Shown: piece by piece, positions 493 through 21,720 of the stretch
How positions within the stretch are numbered: position 1 is the stretch's first letter
Layout: each line of letters starts with the position of its first letter
Assembly (NCBI GenBank): GCA_031288005.1
Contig: JAITSE010000037.1
Span: 1-26,012 of the forward strand
Length of the DNA stretch: 26,012 nt
Direction: 5' to 3'
Source of the DNA: Treponema sp.
GTDB taxonomy: Bacteria; Spirochaetota; Spirochaetia; Treponematales; Breznakiellaceae
The notes under the pieces: model-generated
The model's input: only the letters and a program-made list of their open reading frames with translations
Databases searched by the model: none
Told to the model about the DNA's origin: nothing
Made by a program: the position numbers and the translations under genes

Positions 493-591
493 GTTGTTAA
501 AGGGGGGCCGGGGGGTCTTGGGCCCCCCCTCAGCGGAGCAGAGCCCCGCCGAGGGGGGCGCCGGACTAAAGTCCGCGACTTCCCCCTCCTG
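493..591 (+). repeat. GC-rich modular palindromic element, copy A (intergenic)
   Basis: Starts GTTGTTAAAGGGGGGCCGG and ends ACTTCCCCCTCCTG. It is the same family as the copies at 2576-2695 and 5743-5886 (reverse strand). Shared blocks in order are a G-run with CCGGGGGG, a GGGCCCCCC arm, GCAGAGCCCCGC, GGGGGGCGCCGG and the ACTTCCCCCTCCTG end. Between the last two blocks sits a private palindrome CGGACT-AA-AGTCCG (562-575). That palindrome recurs alone at 21848-21859 in reverse orientation. This copy lies just downstream of a gene, so it does not disturb coding sequence. Confidence 0.8.
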
Positions 592-2236: not shown

Positions 2237-4876
2237 ATGAAAGCAGAATTCCTTTCCTGTCTTTTTAGCGGTTCCCCGGCTGCGGTGGTTCTGGCTTCCG
2301 CGTCGGGGGCTCTCCTTTCGGCGAATCGCCGGGGAGAGGTCCTCCTCGCGTCCCTTGTGGGGGACTTCCGGGACGGCGTTTCTTCCGAAGGCTGTCTTTT
2401 GGAACAGGCCCTGTGGAATTCCAGGGACTACGTCCGTCTTATCGCCGGAGAAATAGGATCGGTGGTTTTTTCCCTGGCGGTTAAGGATTCCCGGGACGGG
2501 GTCCGGTGGTTCAAGATTGGCGCCTGGGCTGTTGACGGACTAGCAGGCGGTCAACATAGGAATTGCGAGATGGATATGGTGGGTCCGGGGGGTTCTAAAC
2601 CCCCCGGCGGGGGCATTACGGGGGCAGCGCCTCCGTTGAGGGGGGCGCCGGAAGCCCGTAGGGCTGTAGGCAGGGGGGAGACTTCCCCCCTCCTGAGTAC
2701 GCCTCGCATTTTCTTTGCTGACTGCCTACTAGAAAGATACGGGGTTGTGGCGGAGGAAGGGGACGCTCGGTTTGTTCTCATCCTCCGGGACGAAACCTGG
2801 GAACGCCAGAAGGAAGCCCGGCTCCAGGAAGCCCGGAGGAACGCGGAGCAGGCTATGGAGACCAAAAGCCGGTTTCTAGCCAACATGAGCCATGAGATTC
2901 GTACCCCCATTCAGACTATCATAGGCATGACCGAATTGCTGCGGGACACCAATTTGGACCAGGAGCAGGCCGAATATTCCCGGCAGGTTAAATTTTCCGC
3001 GGAAGTTCTGCTTTCCCTCATCAACGACATCCTGGACTACTCCAAGATAGAAGCCGGAAAGATGGTCCTGGAATATATTGATTTCGATCTGGAACAGACT
3101 ATCGAACAGGCTGTGGAGATGATCTCCCTGGAGGCTCACAAGAAGGGCCTGGAGATAGCCCTGGATATACCTCCCGACGCGGCAATTTGTATCAAGGGAG
3201 ACCCGAACAAATACCGGCAGATCGTGATCAACCTGGTTAAAAACGCGGTGAAGTTCACCCAGAAAGGGGGAGTCACCATCGCCGCCCTTCTTACCGAATG
3301 GAAGGGGAGGGAGGCGATACGGGTGTCCGTGGCGGATACGGGCATAGGGGTCCCTGAAGAGATACGAGACCGGTTATTCACCACCTTTTTCCAGGGAGAC
3401 CCTTCCAACACCCGGCAGTTCGGTGGTACAGGCTTGGGACTTTCCATTTCCCAGAACCTGGTGGAACTCATGGGCGGCTCGATAAACATGATTCCCAACG
3501 AGGGGGGCGGCTCGATTTTCCGGTTCACCATTCCCATTGAGCGGTCAGGCGCGGCCGTCGAAGTCCCGCCGGTCTTCCTGGGGCGGGATCTGCGTATCCT
3601 GGTCGTGGACGACCGGCCTGAATCCCGGCGTATCCTGGTCTCCTACCTCCAGGACATAGGCTGCGTGGAAGTGGATGTGGCGGTCTGCGGCGAGGAAGCC
3701 CTGGTGGCCATGCGGGCCGCCGCCGCCCGGAAGCGCCCCTTCGGCGTCTGCTTCCTGGACATGATTATGCCCCAGATGGACGGATGGCGCCTTGCCGCCG
3801 AGATAAACGGTGATGAAGAAATCAACAGCGCCCGGCTTATTCTGATGGTTCCCCAGGGACTCTTGGGCGCTGAGGCCAAGATGACCCTTCTCAAGTGGTT
3901 CAAGGCATACATCAACAAACCCATTATGCGCAAGGACCTGATTCGTACTCTTGGAGAAGCCCTGACCGATCCCGCCGAAGAATCGGAAGTTGTTGAGGAA
4001 TTGGAAGCCCTCGATGAGATAGAAACTTCAGGATGTGAGACGTCCGGGCCGGGGGACGTTGAGGCGGAGGGAGGGAAGCCCCTTATTCTGGTAGTGGAAG
4101 ATCATCTGGTCAACCAAAAACTTTTCTCTATTATTCTGAAAAAATTGGACTACCCGGTCATCCTTGCGGAGGACGGCCTGGACGCTCTGGAGAAAACCGC
4201 CGCGTACCCCGTGTCCTTCGTCTTTATGGACATCCAGATGCCCAGGATGAACGGCTACGATGCCGCAGACCAACTGAGGCGGCGGGGCTTTGGAAAGCCG
4301 ATAATCGCCGTTACCGCCAGCGCCTTCCCGGAGGAGCGGGATCGGTGCATGAGCGTGGGTTTTAACGACATCCTCATCAAACCCTTTGGGCGGAAGGATG
4401 TAGAAAAGATGCTTCTTGTCTGGCCTCCGGGGGCAAGCCTTTCCGTCTGTACCGTGGCGGTGGAGCCTCCCCTAATGCAAGAACCGGCCTCCGTATCTGA
4501 TGAGCCGTGGACCCATATCTTCAACCACGACGAGATAAGAGAGACCTTCCTCAAGGACGAGGAGACGATCCGTTCCCTGCTGATACGGTTTATCGCCAGG
4601 ACCCGGGAACAGGTTGTGGTGGAGATCCCCCGTTGCATGGAGGTCGGGGATTTGGAAGAGGCCCGGCAGGAGGCTCACACCATTAAGGGAGGCGCCCTGA
4701 CCCTGGCGGCCAGGGAACTTGGGCAGATCGCCGCCCGGATGGAAGCGGCCTTTAAGAACCGCGACCATGCCGAGATGAGTTCCGCCTTCCCGCTTTTAAA
4801 GGCCGCCTTTACCCGGTTTGAAGCGAAAGCCTGGCGATACCTGGGTGAAAGGCCCGCCATGGGCAAGGAGGTTTGA
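2237..4876 (+). CDS. Hybrid sensor histidine kinase with two receivers and an HPt domain
   Basis: An 879-residue phosphorelay kinase. Residues 1-200 look PAS-like, with no membrane segment seen, and are interrupted at about 114-153 by a Gly/Pro-rich stretch encoded by repeat copy B. A short coiled coil (about 180-210) leads to the HisKA domain with phosphoacceptor His219 in NMSHEIRTP. The ATPase domain shows [17 protein letters not shown] and GGTGLGLS. Receiver 1 has its acceptor at Asp508 ([12 protein letters not shown]) and a Lys in INKP. Receiver 2 has Asp665 ([12 protein letters not shown]) and LIKP. The C-terminal HPt domain has His814 in AHTIKGGA. Thus a full His-Asp-His chain is encoded. 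The start ATG at 2237 lacks a clear ribosome-binding site, and an out-of-frame ATG at 2230 competes. It is probably cytoplasmic and coupled to the response regulator upstream. Confidence 0.93.
2540..2732. repeat. Imperfect 14-bp inverted repeat flanking repeat copy B inside the kinase gene
   Basis: CTAGCAGGCGGTCA at 2540-2553 and TGACTGCCTACTAG at 2719-2732 are inverted repeats matching at 12 of 14 positions. They bracket the GC-rich element copy B with spacers of about 22 bp on each side. This could be the edge of a larger inserted unit or chance. The other two copies do not show the same flanks. Confidence 0.45.
2576..2695 (+). repeat. GC-rich modular palindromic element, copy B (in frame inside kinase gene)
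   Basis: The same block order as copy A: GTGGGTCCGGGGGG, then CCCCCCGGCGGGGGC, then GGGGGGCGCCGG and the end ACTTCCCCCCTCCTG. Its private palindrome is AGCCC-GTA-GGGCT (2653-2665). The stretch is about 120 bp, equal to 40 codons. It contains no stop in the kinase frame and encodes a Gly/Pro/Arg-rich segment ([13 protein letters not shown]...). It sits in what looks like a loop between the strands [11 protein letters not shown] and RFVLILRDE of a PAS-like domain. Confidence 0.82.
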
Positions 4877-4878
4877 TT

Positions 4879-6825
4879 TTGCGGTTTTCCTCTCTTCATG
4901 TACACACCGTCTTCTGCGATGGGGAGGATGAGGTTGAAACCTATTGTCGCGCCGCCTGGGAAGGGGGATTTGCCTCCCTGGGGTTCAGCGCCCACGCGCC
5001 GATACAGGCGAAGACCGGCATCGTTTCGGACTGGCACCTTCGGGAAGATCGGCTGGCCGAATATGTGGACGCGGTCAGGAAGGCTGCGTTGCGCTGGGCC
5101 GGGAGGCTCCCGGTGTACCTGGGCCTGGAGGTGGATTATATTCAGGACCATATGGGGCCAGCCGACGCGGATTACCGGGACATGGGCTTGGACTACATCA
5201 TAGGATCAGTGCACTATGTTTTCCCCCCCAATGGCGGGGAGCCTTTTGCCGTGGACGGTCCCGCCGACGAGTTTGCCCGGGACCTCCATTCCCGTTTCGG
5301 CGGAGACGGTGAAGCCTTCATGGAAACCTATTGGGAAACTGTGGAAAAGATGATTCTATCAGGGGGGGTTGACATTCTGGGACACCTCGATTTGATAAAG
5401 AAGAACAACCTCCGGGAAAACTGGTTCTCCCCTGCGGGCGAGCGGTACCGCCTGAGGGTGCGTTCTGTTGCGGCCTATATCGCCCGGTCCGGGATCGTGG
5501 TAGAGGTCAACACCGGGGGCATTAACCGGGGAAAAACAACGGACACCTATCCCTCACGGGAAATCCTCACCCTTCTCCGGGAAGGGCATGTTCCAGTCAT
5601 CATCACCGCCGACGCCCACCGGGTTGCGGATATAGGGGGGCACTACGACGACGCCCGCCAAACATTGCGGGAAGCGGGCTACACCCACGCGGTACTTTTC
5701 GCGGGGAAAGGGATATGGGTGGAAGAAAGCCTATGCCCAAAGCAGGAGGGGGAAGTCTCCCCCCTGGCTCCGGCCCAGAGACTTGCTCCGCAAGTCTCCC
5801 GGGCCTCCGCCACCCCCCACAGCGGGGCTCTGCCCCGCAACGCCCCGCCGGGGGGCCCAAGGCCCCCCGGACCCCCCATTAACAACGGGAGTTCAGCGGG
5901 ATCCCATCCGGCTTTAGTCTGGATACTGACGGCATATCTCATCATCGTCCTAGCCGCCTGCGCCTCAGCGCCCCGGACCCTCACAGAAGCCTTAGCCGTG
6001 GGGGACGATTTCGCTCTATTGGACCCCGGCGGCCTTGCCTACCTCTCCCTCGACATACCCCAATCGCGGCCCGTCCTGGACCTGATTTCCATAGGGGGAC
6101 TTGGGAGGGGCCAGGCGGCCCAGACGCTGGACATGACGGATACGGCGGCGGCGGCGGTGTATCCCCCCGAAGACGGCAGGAGCTTTCTCCTAGCCGCCCG
6201 GGGCCGCTACCCAAGTTCCCGCCTGCGCTTTTCCCTGGGCCTAAGTTCATCCTGGAAAAAGACGCGCTCCAAAACCGGCGGACGCTATTGGCGCTCCGAG
6301 GAAAATAAACTTTCGCTCTACGTTGAGCCTCAGTACGCATTGATCTCCGACGGAGACCCCTTTCCCCACACCGGCGGGGTCAGACCCCCGGAAAAGTTCG
6401 CGGAGCTTAGTGAAGGGGCGGTCCTTGCCGGCTGGCTCCCGGACGCGGAGTCCCTGATAAACCGGTTTCTGTCAGGTATGCAGATTCCCTTAGCGATACC
6501 GGCGGATATCCTCATCTTCGGAGTATATCCCGGCCCGGCAGGGGCTGAGGAAACGGACGCCGCGAATCCCAAGTCCCGCTTTTTTGCGAAACTCAGGCTT
6601 GAACTGCCCTCGCCAAGCCACGTCAGCGCCCTTGTTTCCATGATTTCGTTAATCCAATCTTTCATTGCAATGGACGCCGCGGGAGAAGAGCGGCTTCCGC
6701 TTGCGAAAATCCTTTTCGCCAATGCCCCGATCCCGGAGAATTCGTCCCTGATCCTGGCAAGCTCCGCTTTGGCCGCCGAAGAAATCGCTTTACTTTTTAA
6801 TATGTTCTCGATATATTCTAGATAA
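4879..6825 (+). CDS. PHP-family histidinol-phosphatase-like enzyme fused in frame to a lipoprotein-like domain
   Basis: One open frame of 648 residues. TTG at 4879 is chosen because AAGGAGG (4865-4871) ends 7 bp before it; TTG at 4873 would be too close. Residues 1-287 are a PHP metallophosphatase domain: HVHTVFCDG, GFSAHAP, GLEVDYI, GSVHYV, DILGHLDLI, VEVNTGG and ITADAHR supply the metal ligands. The family dephosphorylates histidinol phosphate or related substrates. Residues about 288-335 are encoded by repeat copy C on the opposite strand. Residues 345-361 form a hydrophobic segment with lipobox LAAC (Cys361), followed by an unrecognised about 285-residue domain. A cytoplasmic enzyme followed by a lipoprotein signal makes little sense as one protein. 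No ATG, GTG or TTG start lies just before the lipobox, so the repeat appears to have fused two former genes. It may instead be translated as separate products. Confidence 0.82.
   Translation: MRFSSLHVHTVFCDGEDEVETYCRAAWEGGFASLGFSAHAPIQAKTGIVSDWHLREDRLAEYVDAVRKAALRWAGRLPVYLGLEVDYIQDHMGPADADYRDMGLDYIIGSVHYVFPPNGGEPFAVDGPADEFARDLHSRFGGDGEAFMETYWETVEKMILSGGVDILGHLDLIKKNNLRENWFSPAGERYRLRVRSVAAYIARSGIVVEVNTGGINRGKTTDTYPSREILTLLREGHVPVIITADAHRVADIGGHYDDARQTLREAGYTHAVLFAGKGIWVEESLCPKQEGEVSPLAPAQRLAPQVSRASATPHSGALPRNAPPGGPRPPGPPINNGSSAGSHPALVWILTAYLIIVLAACASAPRTLTEALAVGDDFALLDPGGLAYLSLDIPQSRPVLDLISIGGLGRGQAAQTLDMTDTAAAAVYPPEDGRSFLLAARGRYPSSRLRFSLGLSSSWKKTRSKTGGRYWRSEENKLSLYVEPQYALISDGDPFPHTGGVRPPEKFAELSEGAVLAGWLPDAESLINRFLSGMQIPLAIPADILIFGVYPGPAGAEETDAANPKSRFFAKLRLELPSPSHVSALVSMISLIQSFIAMDAAGEERLPLAKILFANAPIPENSSLILASSALAAEEIALLFNMFSIYSR
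5743..5886 (-). repeat. GC-rich modular palindromic element, copy C (at the junction of two gene halves)
   Basis: Read on the minus strand it begins GTTGTTAATGGGGGGTCCGG, nearly identical to the start of copy A. It ends AGACTTCCCCCTCCTG, as copies A and B do. Its private palindrome is GAGACTTGC-TCC-GCAAGTCTC (5778-5798 on the plus strand). About 144 bp, open in the host frame, encoding a Pro/Ala/Arg-rich linker. It lies exactly between the phosphatase domain and the lipoprotein signal. Confidence 0.83.
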
Positions 6826-21557: not shown

Positions 21558-21599
21558 ATACGGTCATACCGATTCGGCGGAAAGGCAAAGCCTTCAGCG

Positions 21600-21702
21600 C
21601 CGTAAAACTTCCCTACGCCGGCATTATCCGGATCAGGTAATAAGGGTTAAAAGCGTCGCGCCGCTTTCTCTCAGCCGGAACTATCCGGCACCCCTGCTTG
21701 AA
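21600..21702 (-). promoter_or_regulatory. TPP riboswitch (THI element)
   Basis: The minus strand carries the conserved core blocks in order: AGGGGTGCC (about 21695-21687), GGCTGAGA (about 21677-21670), ACCCTTATTACCTGATCCGG and ATAATGCCGGCGTAGGGAAG. These are the invariant aptamer segments of the thiamine diphosphate riboswitch. With the terminator at 21519-21557 it should shut off thiD-thiM-thiE-HAD when thiamine diphosphate is abundant. Confidence 0.96.
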
Positions 21703-21720
21703 TGTAAAAGAACCGCCTCT

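Follow-up and report, generated by a model that had tools for sequence, protein, structure and literature searches.

The GC-rich segment that interrupts the sensor half of a hybrid histidine kinase in the Treponema DNA analysed here (a stretch of 26012 bases, below called the window) is very probably one copy of a family of non-autonomous mobile hairpin repeats that has in-frame copies inside genes, that would be moved in trans by a DDE (IS4-type) transposase, and that in this kinase would likely form a neutral loop. The kinase, the inserted segment with its parts, and the relatives of the segment within the window are the following.

2237..4876, + strand: hybrid histidine kinase open reading frame (ORF), 879 aa, with PAS-like N-terminus, HisKA, HATPase_c, receivers and Hpt
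2540..2728, + strand: inserted segment, 189 bp, codons 102-164; orthologues L001, L002 and L003 are without it
2540..2569, + strand: left inverted-repeat arm, begins with CTAG; 24/30 positions matched to the right arm
2579..2606, + strand: module A hairpin (G-run, C-run)
2609..2692, + strand: repeat core with hairpin 1, variable hairpin 2 and hairpin 3; covariance model R1, 83.1 bits, the block being also among the R1 training sequences
2703..2732, - strand: right inverted-repeat arm, ends with CTAG (2729-2732); up to CTAG 44/48 identical to L119 (genome G024), 1/20 beyond
about 501..591, + strand: copy 1, intergenic; module A and end module, without the middle module
725-797: tRNA-Lys gene downstream of copy 1
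4873..6825, + strand: read-through ORF comprising a PHP-type phosphatase, copy 3 and a lipoprotein without its usual start region
5743..5876, - strand: copy 3; module A and core (5745-5847, R1 44.5 bits) at the joint of the PHP and lipoprotein reading frames

An insertion in the kinase gene

The kinase segment is an insertion missing from the orthologous kinases of three Treponema metagenome-assembled genomes (MAGs), L001 (Iy174_bin49), L002 (Cc175_bin43) and L003 (Ct408_bin23), and the names suggest a termite-gut origin for these MAGs and for the window. When the DNA is compared, the gap at the kinase site measures 214 bp in the window versus 25 bp in L001, and 213 versus 24 bp for both L002 and L003, a length difference of 189 bp in 3/3 orthologues, and the kinase flanks, once joined, align gap-free with all three. 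The insert thus spans 2540-2728, which is wider than the 2576-2695 (about 40 codons) given in the initial annotation; the bounds move outward, and the size becomes 189 bp, or 63 codons. At the protein level, 120 kinase homologues were listed, of which P0002-P0021 were aligned (P0001, 85 cuttable and 14 not cuttable sequences lay outside the alignment), and the block between residues 101 and 165 is missing in 20/20 of the aligned proteins. Together with the DNA of L001, L002 and L003 this agrees with the expectation that homologues lack the segment, and the notion that all of them contain it fails. The insert is positioned ahead of HisKA, so no catalytic motif is lost, and the original description of a GC-rich repeat lying in frame within the kinase, with the frame kept and the catalytic motifs intact, holds.

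Anatomy of the window copies

Three related GC-rich blocks occur in the window, at about 501-591 (+), 2579-2695 (+) and 5743-5876 (-); the relatives of the kinase copy had been placed at 493-591 and 5743-5886, and both are real, with bounds that now read about 501-591 and 5743-5876. The kinase insert consists of arms of ~30 bp each, with CTAG at both outer ends, around a GC-rich hairpin core. The match between the arms (14/17, 24/30) is found at a single place among 25,819 window positions at that spacing, and the 14/17 level is met 9 times in 2,323,575 tests when all spacings of 150-239 are tried over the window. The right arm is common to the window and L119 up to CTAG, with almost nothing shared beyond, and this fixes the right edge; the left arm of L119 is only partly like that of the window. 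CTAG flanks the window copy on both sides and may be a target-site duplication or, as L119 suggests, part of the arm; L001, L002 and L003 have no CTAG at this place.

Extraction of copies by pattern yielded 34 matches that included a few unrelated ones, and a covariance model (R1) took its place, trained on 19 cores that include window 2608-2696 itself. R1 does not match copy 1 (501-591), whose middle module is missing. The pairs that RNAalifold finds over the 19 cores all belong to hairpin 1 or hairpin 3, and 3/16 of them show changes on both sides; hairpin 2 is too divergent among copies to be aligned. The cores have a mean GC content of 72% and a length of about 80 bp.

Copy 3 is also in frame, as a read-through joint of two genes. 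The frame is open through copy 3 and the lipoprotein frame holds no ATG, GTG or TTG in window 5719-5998, and on these grounds copy 3 appears to have fused the PHP and lipoprotein genes, or the lipoprotein gene to have lost its usual start. The PHP gene ends exactly at the copy 3 start in L002, a few codons later in L003 and about a dozen codons later in L001. Lipoprotein homologues (64 listed, 228-370 residues) have a start residue and a leader before the lipobox in 12/13 of those whose starts were inspected, the thirteenth being a fragment. Elsewhere in the window, a TPP riboswitch lies at 21592-21705 (-), beside frames that by eye resemble thiamine genes.

Spread of the repeat family

The initial annotation held that its reading would fall if no further copies existed; searches of related genomes recovered many more. 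With copy 3 as DNA query at E<=1, matches number 14 in G001, 51 in G002, 1 in G003 (E 0.15), 3 in G006 (E 0.6) and 0 in two other genomes, some of these being pieces of one copy. Copy 2, that in the kinase, is matched at E<=0.01 in 22/58 relatives of G001, the weakest possibly by chance. R1 at E<=1e-3 finds the repeat in 3/9 genomes (Treponema, Spirochaetaceae and Gracilinema MAGs); the remaining six, namely Breznakiella homolactica, a further two spirochaete MAGs and three genomes from outside the spirochaetes, give no match. At E<=1e-4, matches occur in 86/194 genomes of the order of G001, which we take to be Treponematales, and in 38/296 genomes of the phylum; copy numbers per genome are lower bounds, based on the best 23 candidates per genome for the order and the best 15 for the phylum. 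Similar GC-rich repeats occur in the phylum of the Desulfovibrionaceae, and R1 was for this reason searched there as well, with 0/148 genomes matched in the phylum of a Desulfovibrionaceae genome, an empty answer that alone shows little. Plasmid and phage records gave no match. As far as tested, then, the family is restricted to spirochaetes of the order of G001, and a description of this repeat in treponemes was not found in the literature searched, which was covered in part.

Copies inside genes

About a quarter of the high-scoring copies studied lie in frame within conserved genes. We studied 146 copies, no two of which share a place: 66 of 77 R1 matches from 73 sources (two in the window), and 80 others taken roughly by score from the 194-genome R1 list, their location not known beforehand. 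The 11 matches dropped from the 77 comprise 5 same-place records (L146, L150, L174 and L172 twice) and 6 weak or partial ones (the second of L132, L138 twice, L180, L141 and L130). The 146 are high-scoring matches and not a random genome-wide sample. Of these, 43 lie in ORFs that stay open for 60 codons or more beyond each end, and 38 of the 43 are in recognisable genes belonging to about 21 families: IleRS, Lnt, a 4Fe-4S membrane protein, PriA, GltB, MMPL exporters, isopropylmalate synthase (IPMS) type, ABC-F, PolA, CopA type, XPB-type helicase, RimO/MiaB type, MCP, PurF type, ABC exporter, two histidine kinases, CarB, IF-2, NFACT and BcrA type (names after Pfam, the finer ones being our reading). 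One copy, L310, sits within the HATPase domain of another histidine kinase.

Homology flanks the repeat on both sides in 36/38 recognisable genes, and by Pfam on one side only in L296 and L331. The 5 read-through copies not counted as recognisable are L147, L131 and L286, which have no Pfam family, L159, whose only domain follows the repeat directly, and copy 3 of the window. In L124 a HEPN domain (Pfam) is found in another frame, and the IleRS frame of the same gene was read in L358. In IleRS, IPMS and PriA the alignments to PDB entries are interrupted where the repeat lies, and in GltB they have a gap at that point; the match table of the CopA type breaks at the repeat too, and the alignment of the first part of Lnt falls short of significance.

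Genic copies were picked by the in-frame criterion, so that frame-keeping by all of them is not independently proved, and broken genes were for the same reason also looked for. Under narrow criteria, the search for frame-broken genic copies gave 2/146. Loose criteria give 17 candidates among the 103 copies not read through, with a stop <=10 nt before the repeat in 12/17, and in the remaining 5 no domain is split by the repeat, the two sides having different domains or none. As to orientation, antisense copies make up 28/39 of the non-window genic set (p 0.07 when compared with the fraction of frames free of stops), the 39 being 37/38 of the recognisable copies together with two that have <60 codons upstream, Dus L143 and SufS L122. 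Several reading frames of the repeat are used among the genic copies.

Two host genes allow sites with and without the repeat to be set side by side. For IleRS, 36/39 genomes matched, and the 30 loci obtained comprise 5 with the repeat, 24 without and 1 unread, the query itself having carried the repeat, which may favour repeat-bearing loci; the repeat is also present in IleRS of 5 more genomes found earlier. Loops without it measure 14-31 residues between fixed motifs. The IleRS copies are not all read in the same frame of the repeat, which makes two or more events, or changes of frame, likely. The CarB linker (15 loci) has the repeat in 5, lacks it in 8 and is not comparable in 2, and the linker copies, among them L385, L387, L390 and L394, are in frame, with several of them eroded.

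How the repeat may move

Our best guess for the mover is a transposase of the IS4 type that recognises inverted repeats in trans. Genome G002 holds a 1345-bp insertion sequence (IS; L221) with ends ACTGTCAACAAGTTAAG and a DDE_Tnp_1 ORF, a family that we take to be IS4-type. Its end motif (<=2 mismatches) is found 116 times in G035, 57 times in G017, 11 times in G002, once in G001 and 0 times in G024, and the reversed control gives 0. In G035, 3/4 of the pairs of 17-bp repeats have a GC core between them (L217, L226 and L235; 12 pairs inspected in all), and the ends bounding these cores are nearly the same as those of the L221 IS. The arms in the window match the IS ends only in part (C-GTCAACA) and G024, with the nearest copy, has no IS end, for which reasons we infer the link to the L221 IS rather than observe it. 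Four loci of G017 (L216, L219, L222 and L231) carry ~130-bp elements whose ACTGTCAACAACTTAAG-like ends are those of the IS, located in hairpin 3 of GC cores, with ~12-bp duplications.

In the mechanism that we propose, a DDE (IS4-type) transposase in trans would move the repeat via inverted repeats, the window copy via its own arms, and genic insertions would survive only with a length that is a multiple of three, a stop-free frame and a flexible-loop site. Arms were not seen at genic cores elsewhere, in the stretches read, so two movement routes may be mixed here. Another repeat, GGCTGTTCCAAAACTTC with its inverse, is abundant in G001, G002, G003, G017 and G024 and often forms palindromes, with 49 to 247 matches per genome at <=3 mismatches versus 11 to 25 for the reversed control.

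Structure and effect on the kinase

An AlphaFold model of kinase residues 1-288 (48 rows) has a mean pLDDT of 76 and strands at 75-83, 89-99 and 178-185. The insert region, residues 101-170, has block-mean pLDDT values of 38-58 and lies between strands 89-99 and 178-185. Foldseek matches the model to LOV/PAS histidine kinases (best E 6.7e-8; rmsd 8-10 and TM 0.3-0.4 for the whole model). This low-pLDDT stretch between strands and these fold matches make it probable that the insert forms a loop of a PAS-like fold, and its location in the sensor (PAS-like) domain, as first annotated, is backed by the same matches at modest TM-scores. Its predicted translation would be a disordered 63-residue loop between two PAS-like strands, whose effect on the kinase would most likely be neutral or a mildly altered sensing; a neutral loop is our default reading of the model.

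It is rather improbable that the insert instead decapitates the kinase, in which case it would be an inactivating sensor insertion, with a restart at the GTG after it and a 709-residue kinase devoid of the sensor half as the product. This is what the public gene call for the window kinase would imply, P0001 being 709 aa long with its GTG start downstream of the insert, and the N-terminal dN/dS of the window versus L001, at 0.72, points the same way. Residues 1-101 and the insert, however, form an open frame with neither stop nor frameshift, and homology resumes exactly after the insert. Across the relatives, the window gives N-terminal dN/dS values of 0.40-0.72, so that relaxed constraint on the sensor half is possible, yet the lowest, versus L003 (0.40), is similar to the 0.43-0.52 found among the relatives themselves. 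In addition, conserved genes hold 37 other genic copies in frames that stay open, although an open frame was how they were picked. Highly improbable is an assembly artefact: the window does appear to be a metagenome contig, but the insert has a codon-multiple length, arms and an edge common to another assembly, and the repeat behaves alike in many other genomes.

Known systems and alternative identities

Rickettsia palindromic elements (RPEs) are described, in passages of PMC10969869 and PMC2229807, as small many-copy hairpin repeats in frame within unrelated conserved genes. The present repeat is like them in that it forms hairpins, is present in many copies and lies in frame in about 21 unrelated gene families, and differs in its host, a spirochaete and thus of another phylum, in its GC-rich core of about 80 bp, and in the several reading frames used. 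The resemblance to RPEs raised at the outset is upheld by the in-frame copies in many unrelated conserved genes of other treponemes, inserted without loss of frame. Membership in the RPE family itself is not supported: RPE-4 and RPE-6 have a CGTC tag at one end, according to part of PMC3733652, whereas CGTC or its complement lies within 8 nt of a core end in 1/146 copies, and the host is different. On this comparison the repeat works like an RPE and probably belongs to a different family. Coding palindromes outside Rickettsia are also indicated by a reference title in PMC2229807, on Wolbachia protein-coding palindromic repeats (WPE), to which the likeness is one of description. Miniature inverted-repeat elements (MITEs) share the inverted-repeat arms of the window copy and the G035 arrangement, where cores lie within inverted repeats close to those of the DDE_Tnp_1 IS, and differ from the genic cores elsewhere, which in the stretches read have no arms.

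Another identity would be a repetitive extragenic palindrome (REP) that carries hairpins and GTAG tags and owes its movement to a RAYT (Y1 transposase), the genic copies then being ordinary intragenic REPs. The repeat shares with REPs and BIMEs its hairpins and the intragenic cases, and a GTAG is often present as well, but internally, before hairpin 2 (GGTAG[CG] in 86/146 cores), the REP tag being terminal; intragenic REPs are already on record, including in DNA polymerase I and tRNA synthetases, as are CGTC repeats in Spirochaetes, in the relevant parts of PMC3733652. We nonetheless regard this identity as unlikely, for the present unit is longer and has three hairpins, 129/146 cores falling within 75-89 bp bins and not at 20-40 bp, and an association with a Y1 transposase is not seen: Y1_Tnp (PF01797) and R1 occur together in 33/194 genomes versus 37 expected (Fisher p 0.24, co-occurrence at genome level), and the R1-rich G129, G159, G161, G171 and G192 all lie outside the set of 84 genomes in which Y1 is matched. 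The stability of hairpin 2, which folds better than shuffles (mean z -1.9; 127/146 copies parsed, 116 distinct sequences), might alternatively speak for an RNA element, regulatory or structured, that is retained because it functions at the mRNA level, with genic copies as by-products. We think this improbable, as Rfam leaves the repeat unmatched at gathering in the window and gives nothing credible in five loci, and the 103 non-read-through copies lie between convergent (21), same-direction (49) or divergent (25) genes in the 95 that could be classified (8 could not), an arrangement devoid of preference that does not suggest a terminator.

Implications

By analogy, spirochaetes seem to possess elements of their own that correspond to those of Rickettsia. 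Going further, and tentatively, since we consider it possible rather than probable, the repeat may be a recurrent donor of protein loops that has colonised IleRS, the CarB linker, CopA-type proteins, Lnt and ABC-F loops in several species, keeping the frame and eroding to ordinary-looking linkers as in CarB. High-frequency gain of protein segments from selfish DNA has been described mainly from Rickettsia, as part of PMC10969869 has it, and if the loop-donor reading is true, mobile DNA would feed new protein segments in spirochaetes at a scale so far described mainly for that genus. The same behaviour in remote spirochaetes, with presence and absence at the IleRS and CarB sites, would make the transition from repeat to protein testable, and natural proteins with a fresh, an eroded or no insert would provide the comparison set for that question.
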